From contig NZ_APJI01000010.1 in NCBI RefSeq assembly GCF_000497575.1, positions 310,001 to 374,000 on the forward strand: DNA of 64,000 bases, in the 5' to 3' direction. The position numbers and the translations under genes are program-made. Positions 29,766 to 32,861 of the stretch are shown in pieces. The DNA is from Afipia sp. OHSU_II-C1. Lineage in GTDB: Bacteria; Pseudomonadota; Alphaproteobacteria; Rhizobiales; Xanthobacteraceae. Below the pieces are notes generated by a model, which did not search any database, was not told the DNA's origin, and worked only from the letters and a program-made list of their open reading frames with translations. Numbering within the stretch: the first letter of the stretch is position 1; the number at the start of each line of letters is the position of its first letter.

Positions 29766-29812
29766 GGCATGATCCTTTCCGAAAACCGGCGGCCACTTTT
29801 CGGGATCATGCC
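29766..29812. repeat. Palindromic repeat overlapping the 3' end of coaBC
   Basis: GGCATGATCC (29766-29775) and GGATCATGCC (29803-29812) flank a core resembling CCGAAAACCGG and CCACTTTTCGG. The same family occurs at 36618-36661 with GAGCATGATCC arms. The right arm supplies the last Ala codon and the TGA of coaBC (29806-29808), so the repeat appears to have been captured as the gene's end. Confidence 0.8.
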
Positions 29813-31215
29813 GTGGTGTCGGCGATTTTTGCCACGAGGGCGTCGGCGACTTCCTCTTTCGTCATCACCGGCCAGGAATCAACAGCAACATTCGCTTTGT
29901 CCAAGGTCAGAACGTGGACGGTGTTGCGGTCCCCGCCCATCACGCCGGAGGCGGGCGACACATCGTTGGCGACGATCCAGTCGCACCCCTTGCGCTTCAG
30001 CTTAGAGGTCGCGTTCTCGATCAGGTTTTGCGTTTCGGCCGCGAAGCCGATCACGAGGCTTGGCCGGTTTTGCTTGAGCTTCGATATGGTCGCCAGAATG
30101 TCGGGATTTTCGACCAGTTGCAGCGGCGGCATGCCCGCCGAGGTCTTCTTGATCTTCTGCGCGCCGGCGTTGGCAATGCGCCAGTCGGCCACGGCGGCGG
30201 CGAAAATCGCGATATCCGCCGGCAGCGCACGCTCCACTTCCGCCAGCATATCGCGCGCGGATTCCACGCGAATGACGCGCACGCCGGCGGGATCGTCGAG
30301 ATCGACCGGGCCCGAAATGAGTGTCACCTCCGCGCCGGCCTCGGCGGCCGATACGGCAATGGCAAAGCCCTGCTTGCCGGAGGACCGGTTGGCGATATAG
30401 CGCACCGGATCGATCGGCTCATGGGTCGGGCCTGCGGTGATGAGAATCTTTTTCCCCGCGAGCGGTCCCGTGGCCGGCGGGCGCAGCATCGCATCTGCCG
30501 CGATGGCAATTTCGGTCGGCTCGGACATGCGCCCGACACCGGCCTCGTTGGCCTCGGCCATCTCGCCGGAATTCGGGCCGATGAAGGCGACGCCGTCGCG
30601 CGCAAGCTGCGCCACGTTGCGTTTGGTCGCGGCGTTGGCCCACATTAGCGGGTTCATCGCGGGCGCGACCAGAACCTGCCGGTTGGTCGCCAGCAGGATC
30701 GCAGTGGCGAGATCGTCGGCCTGGCCCTGCGCCATCTTGGCCATCAGGTCGGCGGTGGCGGGCGCGACAATAATCAGATCGGTATCGCGGGCGAGACGAA
30801 TATGCCCGGCGTCGAATTCGCTCTGGGCATCGAACAAATCTGTGTAGCAGCGCTCGTCCGCCAGCGCCCCGGCGGTGAGCGGGGTCACGAACTGCTGCGC
30901 GGCGCGGGTCATCACGCAGCGGACATGGATGTCGCGTTCCTTGAGGCGGCGGATCAGGTCGAGCGCTTTGTAGGCGGCAATGCCGCCGCCGATGATGAGG
31001 GTAACGCGAGGAAGGCCTTTGACCTCCGGCGCCCGGCTGCGATGGGGCTGGTGGGTGCTGCGTACAGGACTTACGGCGGCCGCGACCGTGCCTTCTGTCG
31101 CCTCCCGCAAGATCATCCGCACCTCGTCCTCGACCGAGCGCCCGGCCTTTGCCGCGCGCAGCCGGAGGCTGGCCTTGAGGTCTTCATCGAGCTTGCGGAC
31201 AGTCAGACTGGCCAT
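29806..31215 (-). CDS. coaBC: RHH-CoaBC: ribbon-helix-helix domain fused to phosphopantothenoylcysteine decarboxylase/synthetase
   Basis: Makes 4'-phosphopantetheine from phosphopantothenate and cysteine in CoA synthesis. From ATG 31215 it has 469 residues. Residues 1 to about 42 ([20 protein letters not shown], then [16 protein letters not shown]) look like a FitA-type antitoxin DNA-binding domain, joined by a linker to CoaC (about 70-245; AGHIRLARD with the His, APAMNPLMW) and CoaB (255-469; [20 protein letters not shown]). The CoaC ACG-x-x-G-x-GR segment reads [11 protein letters not shown] here, without the usual Cys. Upstream sits a promoter with repeated FitA-like half-sites, suggesting self-repression. 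The longer start at 31287 runs into those repeats and is rejected. Confidence 0.9.
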
Positions 31216-31240
31216 GGCGGGGGTCCCTTGAGGCTGGGTG

Positions 31241-31290
31241 ATCCTACCAAATGCTATCAATGCAATCAAATCATGACTGCAATGCAATCA
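31241..31290 (-). promoter_or_regulatory. coaBC promoter overlapped by repeated operator-like half-sites
   Basis: On the minus strand TTGATT (31269-31264) and TAGGAT (31246-31241) are 17 bases apart, each 4/6 to consensus. On the plus strand TGCTATCA (31252-31259), TGCAATCA (31261-31268) and TGCAATCA (31283-31290) repeat, with TGACTGCA (31274-31281) as an inverted near-match. The sites cover the spacer, the -35 box and upstream DNA, an ideal position for a repressor. Confidence 0.65.
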
Positions 31291-31292
31291 TT

Positions 31293-32861
31293 TTAGCGAA
31301 TGGACCAGAGTATCCCGATAAAGGTCAGGGCAATCACCCACAGGGCCGCCGTCTGCCAGCGGTTGCGTTTGGCTTCGGCCTTGCCGATGGCGGCGACCGT
31401 TTCGGGGGACAGCACCAGCCCGTCACGGGTCATCTGGTCGAACTGGTTCAGGACGGCGACCGACCGCGCGGCAATCGCCGGCAGCCCGGCCAGCACCTTG
31501 CCGAGATCGCCGGCGCCGTGCACCGCGCCTTCGATCTGGCCGATCGGTCCGAGATTGCGCGCGATCCATTCGCGCACCACGGGATCGGCGGTGGTCCAGA
31601 TGTCGAGCTTGGGGTCGAAGCCCCGTGCGACGCCTTCCACCACCACCATGGTCTTCTGCAGCATAATCAGTTCGGGGCGCGTGCGCATATCGAACAGGCC
31701 GGTGACTTCGAGCAGCAGCGACAGCAGCTTCGCCATCGAGATTTCGTCAGCCGCGCGGTTGTGGATCGGCTCGCCGATGGCGCGAATGGCCTGCGCGAAA
31801 TTCTCCACCGAGTGATGCGCAGGCACATAGCCTGCTTCAAAATGCACCTCGGCGACACGGCGATAGTCGCGCGTGATGAAGCCGAGCAGAATTTCCGCAA
31901 GGAAGCGGCGCTCCTTCAGGCCGAGCCGTCCCATGATGCCGAAATCGACCGCGACCAGCCGTCCGGTGTCATCGACGAACAGGTTGCCCGGATGCATGTC
32001 GGCGTGGAAGAAACCATCGCGCAGCGCGTGGCGCAGGAAATTCTGGATCACCTTGCGGCCGAGATCGGGAAGATCGATCTGCGCGGCTTCGAGCTTGGCA
32101 CGATCGTTCAGCGCGATGCCGTCGATCCATTCCATCGTCAGCACGTGATGGCTGGTGCGGTCCCAGTCCACCGAGGGCACGCGGAAATCAGGATCGTCGC
32201 GGGTGTTCTCCGCCATCTCGGAAAGCGCGGCGGCTTCCAGCCGCAGATCCATTTCCATCGCCACGGAGCGCGACAGCGTATCGACGATCTCGATCGGGCG
32301 CAGTCGCCGGGCCTCGACAGAAATCGCCTCGATCTTGCGCGCCGCGAACATGAAGTCGCTGAGGTCGTGGCGGAAACGGCCGCCGACATTGGGCCGCAGC
32401 ACCTTCACCGCGACCGTCTTGCGGACGCCGTCCTTCTCCACCTCGGCGCGATGCACCTGCGCGATGGACGCTGCGGCGACCGATTCACCGAAGCTCGCAA
32501 ACACCTGTGCCACAGGTTTCTCGAAGGCATCGGCAACCACGGCCTCGGCCTGCGCTTGCGGAAACGGCGGCAGACGATCCTGCAGATTCTCAAGATCGCG
32601 CGCCATCGTCACGCCGACGACGTCGGGACGAGTGGCGAGAAACTGGCCGAGCTTGACGTAAGTCGGACCGAGCCGTGTCAGTGCGCGGGACAGCCGCCCG
32701 CTGGTGGCCGCGCCGCGGCGCTCGATCAAGCGCGCCATGCGGACCGCGAACTGCGCCTGCGGCGGCATGGTGGATGGATCAGCGAAGCCGAACACACCTT
32801 CGCGCGCGAACACATAACCCGCGCGGGCCAGTCTCAGGGTATGAGTGATGGCAGAAATCAC
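31293..32861 (-). CDS. ubiB: Ubiquinone biosynthesis protein UbiB (ABC1/ADCK family)
   Basis: Atypical kinase/ATPase required for ubiquinone synthesis, membrane associated. It is 522 residues: the N-terminal KxGQ-like segment [15 protein letters not shown], the Ala-rich nucleotide loop [13 protein letters not shown], the catalytic loop [13 protein letters not shown] and DFGIMGRLG. One or two C-terminal hydrophobic segments ([18 protein letters not shown]) anchor it. The start is a GTG that overlaps the ubiE stop by 4 bases. It is annotated in many genomes as 2-polyprenylphenol 6-hydroxylase, but UbiB is an accessory protein rather than the hydroxylase. Confidence 0.95.

Follow-up and report, generated by a model that had tools for sequence, protein, structure and literature searches.

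A ribbon-helix-helix domain fused to CoaBC and twin palindromes in the coaBC promoter: a probable self-repressing enzyme derived from a toxin-antitoxin operon

In Afipia sp. OHSU_II-C1, the bifunctional enzyme CoaBC carries a FitA-like ribbon-helix-helix (RHH) domain at its N-terminus, and its gene is preceded by two palindromes resembling those found upstream of free FitA antitoxins. Both features lie within the window, by which we mean the whole 64,000-nucleotide stretch of DNA that was analysed. An RHH domain fused to CoaBC, together with a matching DNA switch in front of coaBC, indicates that the protein very probably controls its own production. Judging from sequence, we consider it highly likely that RHH-CoaBC is a self-repressing trigger enzyme which descends from a toxin-antitoxin operon that has lost its toxin, and which binds the two palindromes in its own promoter.

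The fused protein and the operator in its promoter

The window coaBC runs on the minus strand from an ATG at 31215 to a stop at 29806 (29806..31215) and encodes 469 residues. Its match to TIGR00521 (coaBC_dfp, E=4.6e-116) scores 388.1 bits against the NCBIfam equivalog cut-off of 219.7, which identifies it as a bifunctional CoaBC. Specifically, the catalytic portion comprises a CoaC flavoprotein (phosphopantothenoylcysteine decarboxylase) domain at residues 70-230 (30526..31008, minus strand; PF02441 Flavoprotein, E=6.4e-30) and a CoaB (phosphopantothenate-cysteine ligase) domain at residues 252-435 (29911..30462, minus strand; PF04127 DFP, E=9.6e-73). It is the sole CoaBC match in the genome at E<=1e-60.

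A preliminary description of this DNA had likened the N-terminus to a FitA-type RHH antitoxin, and the Pfam profile search bears this out. PF22513 matches residues 2-39 (31099..31212, minus strand) with E=4.5e-16 and 59 bits, the gathering cut-off being 27, and phmmer matches residues 2-41 to the Neisseria FitA chains 2h1o and 2bsq of the PDB (E=0.003). With this N-terminal RHH, a DNA-binding domain and an enzyme share one chain, as in a trigger enzyme. The domain is the only FitA-like RHH above the search threshold in the 5.08-Mb window genome, which is rated 100% complete. AlphaFold monomer models place helices at the N-terminus, with the RHH strand not formed. A variable linker at residues 41-69 (31009..31095, minus strand), recognised by sequence identity, the start-codon list and low pLDDT at residues 43-66, separates the RHH from CoaC. 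The window gene contains no in-frame ATG, GTG or TTG from residue 37 to the CoaC core, so CoaBC devoid of its RHH would not readily be made; this situation is not general, a start codon between residue 41 and about the start of the core being present in 47 of 78 fused loci.

In a comparison of 73 fused family-f1 proteins, the RHH (mean pairwise identity 0.72) is almost as well conserved as CoaC (0.77) and CoaB (0.75), and linker residues 42-68 are far more divergent (0.15). Among nine own-genus genes (35 of 36 pairs usable), the RHH has a dN/dS of 0.066, indicative of strong purifying selection. Residues T5 and R7, which from known RHH structures we take to sit in the DNA-facing strand, are invariant in a 22-row alignment of fused domains. 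This invariance, the purifying selection and the retention of the operator in nearly all fused loci argue against the domain being a relic of a decayed toxin-antitoxin pair that is either functionless or serves only in oligomerisation. Relic forms are real, as seen in one genome (G257, locus L113) in which the decayed pair before coaBC has an internally deleted toxin, no remaining operator and a change of the otherwise invariant RHH residue Arg7 to His. For the fused protein itself, we regard such an explanation as very unlikely.

With respect to a toxin, no PIN gene was found near coaBC, in agreement with the preliminary description; the single PF01850 match of the genome lies on another contig (C18). 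The PIN gene that follows the antitoxin directly in a toxin-antitoxin operon is consequently missing from the window, and it is present in some relatives. The toxin-binding C-terminal tail of such antitoxins is also missing, and residues 41-69 form the unconserved linker in its stead. This replacement speaks against RHH-CoaBC acting in trans as the antitoxin of a PIN toxin encoded elsewhere, a role for which one could cite the antitoxin family of the domain and the lone PIN match on the other contig, and which we hold to be quite improbable.

The upstream neighbour, UbiB-like as judged by eye, ends at 31293, which leaves a 77-base gap before the coaBC ATG at 31215. Within this gap lie four half-sites, which read on the plus strand TGCTATCA (31252-31259), TGCAATCA (31261-31268 and 31283-31290) and TGACTGCA (31274-31281). 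The gap and all four half-sites are as previously described, and the matching operator is conserved, but the half-sites are not loose: they combine into two 17-bp palindromes. These imperfect palindromes are 22 bp apart and close to TGATWGCA-N-TGCWATCA. Predicted operator palindrome A (31274..31290) reads TGATTGCATTGCAGTCA on the minus strand, with one mismatch to TGATWGCANTGCWATCA, and predicted palindrome B (31252..31268), 22 bp from A, reads TGATTGCATTGATAGCA, with two. The gene is thus preceded by an operator palindrome of the antitoxin family, as in FitAB/VapBC modules. The span originally assigned to the feature, 29806..31290, has the stop and the gene right and extends at its 31290 end into DNA upstream of coaBC. 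The half-site of Neisseria FitA is TGCTATCA. As a word, TGCTATCA is absent from two reviews (PMC4803016 and PMC3920265).

Palindrome B overlaps a candidate -35 element (TTGATT; 31264..31269, minus strand) that is conserved in an alignment of 12 own-genus loci. A candidate -10 element (TAGGAT; 31241..31246, minus strand) follows 17 nt past it, and this position reads TATAAA in three same-genus relatives (L047, L049 and L050). The 17-bp-spaced promoter overlapped by the sites, as described earlier, is therefore present but weak: TTGATT-17-TAGGAT (31269-31241) has 8 of 12 consensus bases, and a promoter scan demanding at least 9 listed none in the coaBC gap. As the sequence does not give the direction of control, RHH-CoaBC might be imagined to bind the operator and activate, or merely to tether the enzyme to DNA. 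Against both stand the overlap, in own-genus loci, of palindrome B with the -35 and spacer and the negative autoregulation of VapBC-type modules, FitAB included, set out in passages of PMC3920265 and PMC3384007, and we give these options very little weight.

Palindrome A is also listed as terminator-like by a simple scan (31291-31273; 8 pairs, 3 of them G-C, against a mean of 0.1 for shuffles), as might be expected if, instead of binding protein, it formed a hairpin in RNA or a weak terminator after ubiB. The stem has few G-C pairs and lacks a clear T run, and like palindromes both precede toxin-antitoxin genes with other upstream neighbours and are missing before coaBC genes without an RHH. 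That palindrome A is an RNA element instead of a binding site is most improbable. As regards specificity, the window genome has five sites within 2 mismatches of TGATWGCANTGCWATCA, of which A alone has 1 and B is among the four with 2; the reversed consensus has 0 sites in the same 5.08 Mb. The three remaining 2-mismatch sites all fall inside ORFs and were rejected as second targets.

Co-occurrence of domain and operator among relatives

The family sample comprised 198 genomes, 195 of them with CoaBC. At least 115 CoaBC matches begin at residue 1 or 2, including those of all 12 own-genus genomes; the figure is a lower bound because some fused genes align only from later residues (G260, L129). 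Among the matches listed for the order sample (249 genomes, 237 with CoaBC), fusions occur in two groups, family f1 and genus g65 (family f24). This genus is Mesorhizobium, where 84 of 118 CoaBC are fused. No fusion was seen beyond these two groups among the short, antitoxin-sized frames that make up most matches in class and phylum samples of 385 and 398 genomes; a few matches lie in longer frames (for example, 397 aa in G481 and 371 aa in G196, the latter on a different contig from the G196 coaBC). Among 71 CoaBC matches in plasmid records, the alignment begins at residue 53, 70 or 71 in the 20 listed, which therefore show no RHH, and no relative was confirmed in viral contigs. Named hosts of fused genes among the matches listed are Bradyrhizobium, Mesorhizobium, Afipia and Pseudolabrys, in addition to unplaced MAGs; the host bacteria are soil bacteria. 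In Afipia sp. 1NLS2 (L211), the first 40 RHH residues are those of the own-genus genome G394.

Upstream regions were compared at 128 loci by searching 160 bp and accepting sites with up to 3 mismatches. Such a site is present in 75 of 78 fused loci (35 exact), and the best sites of 50 unfused loci (from 49 genomes, G077 being counted twice) all have at least 5 mismatches. Base-shuffled controls reach 3 mismatches in 3 of 1,560 cases, and none does better. The consensus was fixed after viewing 37 fused loci; 38 of the 41 fused loci unseen at that point pass, as do 0 of 19 new unfused family loci. The three exceptions consist of two loci with the twin operator further upstream (L079 at -291/-268 and L080 at -202/-180) and one with two 4-mismatch sites (L108). 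Of the 36 loci with two sites, 32 space them by 22 or 23 bp, about two helical turns. The start of coaBC and the twin operator are separated in L079 and L080 by some 100-200 bp of GC-rich, repeat-like DNA.

In a set of 130 loci, the search was extended to 310 bp before the start of the RHH or of coaBC, and the RHH was counted whether fused or encoded just upstream. RHH and operator occur together at 84 loci and are both missing at 44; the RHH occurs alone at 2 (L108 and the decayed L113) and the operator alone at 0. The half-sites claimed for the window are thus conserved in orthologs, and the operator accompanies the RHH (84/86 vs 0/44). Phylogenetically independent pairs on well-supported branches number 4, too few to reach significance, with a mean of 3.4 in the expected direction and 0 against (median p 0.25).

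Of the 198 family genomes, 52 contain the exact palindrome, each in a single copy, and none contains the reversed control; there is essentially one target per genome. A fused coaBC immediately follows 45 of the 52 sites, 2 precede an antitoxin-toxin-coaBC operon (G323, G414), 1 is at a contig edge beside a ubiB-like end (G404) and 4 are elsewhere (G437, G309, G305, G337). In G437 and G309, an extra exact palindrome sits 4.1-4.3 kb upstream of coaBC (L136:5637, L137:1621); as a second target it was set aside, there being only a doubtful 79-aa ORF, after the end of a peptidase-like gene. In two genomes, exact palindromes (L138:1507 and L139:1473) have flanking inverted repeats, and the 3 kb fetched around them hold no CoaBC match.

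A scan of the genome collection for the palindrome with an M-A-x reading-frame start behind it returned at least 120 stretches, of which 80 loci were classified. Fused genes account for 45 of these listed loci, and 5 more encode RHH plus CoaBC in a shorter frame (locus edge or early frame end). Another 24 are FitA-PIN pairs (Acidobacteria, Caldilineaceae, Gemmatimonadetes, Rhodobacter and others), 4 have an RHH close to the end of the locus and 2 were scored as RHH-less; of this last pair, L275 begins like the Mesorhizobium domain and is then cut, and L220 looks like chance. When free FitA antitoxins were picked by protein similarity, a site with at most 2 mismatches was present at 6 of 8 loci, and none within 3 at the other 2. 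These palindromes before free FitA antitoxins, found by either route, weigh against the operator belonging to another regulator with the RHH unrelated to it, as does the lack of a second FitA-like RHH above the search threshold in the window genome. Co-occurrence alone would be compatible with another regulator, nothing else was found in its favour, and we think it scarcely likely.

Toxin-antitoxin forms at the ubiB-coaBC locus and the origin of the fusion

In some unfused relatives, the interval between ubiB and coaBC holds a palindrome, a PF22513 antitoxin gene and a PIN toxin gene, in that order, closely followed by coaBC; Pfam detected PF22513 and PIN in nine proteins tested from such operons. 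The arrangement was found in G323 and G414 of the own family, in 3 of 8 g38 genomes examined (G235, G034 and G215) and in Mesorhizobium. No toxin-antitoxin pair was found before coaBC at 34 further loci (32 from other families and 2 from genus g27 of family f24), among which L187 had only 488 bp upstream. The length of the gap from ubiB to the next gene fails to separate the classes, with medians of 70 for fused loci, 70 for those without an RHH and 51 for those with the pair (UbiB found in 66/82, 46/83 and 8/9, respectively).

Of the 34 non-fused loci in Mesorhizobium, 22 were examined; 20 of them carry an RHH antitoxin and a PIN toxin ahead of coaBC, and the remaining 2 lack both (one fused locus, L333, was left out of the parsed Mesorhizobium set). 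The toxins form two similarity groups, of 7 and 13 loci, and tandem RHH antitoxin genes precede a single PIN toxin and coaBC at 7 of the 20 loci (L351, L353, L354, L356, L359, L365 and L037). At 18 pair loci, the sites before the RHH have 1 to 3 mismatches, several being TGACAGCA-N-TGCTGTCA, and at L362, where the pair is absent, a broken palindrome persists before coaBC.

Given an antitoxin-PIN pair at the same place in relatives, the fusion looks like a toxin-antitoxin operon minus its toxin, and the domain looks captured from an antitoxin, as the preliminary description had proposed. In a tree of 130 CoaBC cores built by a quick method, the fused state requires 5 changes, at least 3 of them on well-supported branches, and non-fused rows separate the Mesorhizobium fusions from those of family f1. 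Toxin loss leading to fusion thus apparently happened at least twice. In the Mesorhizobium tree, which has 15 changes over 53 rows and few well-supported branches, a second fusion subtype (L033) and both toxin-antitoxin types are interspersed with the fused gene, which suggests cassette swapping. Gain and loss are indistinguishable by change count, so the order of events, with the toxin-antitoxin operon probably first and the fusion later, rests on the decayed forms and on the wide distribution of free FitA-PIN pairs that share the operator.

Proposed mechanism and relation to known systems

In the mechanism that we propose, a FitA antitoxin-PIN operon between ubiB and coaBC would have lost its toxin and the toxin-binding tail of its antitoxin, a loss that would have joined the DNA-binding domain of the antitoxin to CoaBC and left the operator in place. 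The resulting protein, with an active-looking CoaBC, would dimerise through its N-terminal RHH domains and bind the two 17-bp palindromes in the coaBC promoter. When CoaBC is abundant, protein bound over the -35 and spacer region would block transcription of coaBC, and probably that of the dut-like gene downstream of it as well. Binding, repression and scaffolding by RHH-CoaBC are all predicted here from sequence. Counting somewhat against the mechanism are the imperfect sites and weak promoter of the window gene, the terminator-like listing of palindrome A, the 4-mismatch sites of L108, the small number of independent pairs and the lack of an RHH strand in the monomer models. Any responsiveness of DNA binding to CoA or a substrate is a guess, ligand sensing being without support in the sequence.

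The closest comparison for domain and operator is the VapBC-type module FitAB of Neisseria gonorrhoeae, whose antitoxin has an RHH of the same family (PF22513) and whose complex binds an operator upstream of its own genes. As described in passages of PMC3920265 and PMC3384007, FitAB occupies operator DNA as four FitA-FitB heterodimers, and the toxin stabilises the antitoxin dimers. In RHH-CoaBC, by contrast, toxin and toxin-binding tail are absent, and an essential metabolic enzyme is the fusion partner of the RHH. Here, two 17-bp palindromes lie 22-23 bp apart; the FitAB operator spans 36 bp.

The CoaBC oligomer may substitute for the toxin as a scaffold, holding several RHH dimers on the twin operator. 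Mycobacterial CoaBC (M. smegmatis, M. tuberculosis), according to portions of PMC7794376, is a tetrahedral dodecamer whose CoaB is inhibited by CoA thioesters. It has the same two catalytic domains, but those portions describe no RHH and deal with regulation of activity, not of the gene. By analogy, were an oligomer of this kind to stand in for the toxin, several RHH dimers would once more be available to the twin operator.

PutA is a flavoenzyme of proline utilisation whose N-terminal RHH represses its own operon. It shares with RHH-CoaBC the presumed logic of a metabolic enzyme controlling its own gene through an N-terminal RHH, and differs in being another enzyme, and a catabolic one; here the pathway is biosynthetic and the RHH comes, to all appearances, from a toxin-antitoxin operon. 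The distinguishing feature is the route through a toxin-antitoxin operon, the logic being that of PutA. Searches of the open literature returned no paper on CoaBC with ribbon-helix-helix, on phosphopantothenoylcysteine with antitoxin or on a fusion of antitoxin and metabolic enzyme, and passages of the broad toxin-antitoxin survey PMC2701414 contain no such fusion. Among the papers found on coaBC transcriptional regulation and coenzyme A biosynthesis, none concerned control of the coaBC gene, as judged by title.

More tentatively, the ubiB-coaBC gap may be a landing place that retains RHH-PIN modules because an essential CoA gene has come to depend on the operator and promoter of the antitoxin for its switching. 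On this view, the toxin would repeatedly have given way to the enzyme as structural co-repressor, and an addiction module would have become a homeostatic circuit responsive to the level of CoaBC and perhaps of CoA; we offer this as a possibility that falls somewhat short of an even chance. Several stages are visible in these bacteria, namely the toxin-antitoxin operon, the decayed pair and the fusion, with operator and domain kept or lost together. Taken together, relatives of Bradyrhizobium, Mesorhizobium and Afipia provide a concrete, conserved and directly testable candidate circuit with essentially one target, in which a selfish module may have become the regulator of an essential enzyme.
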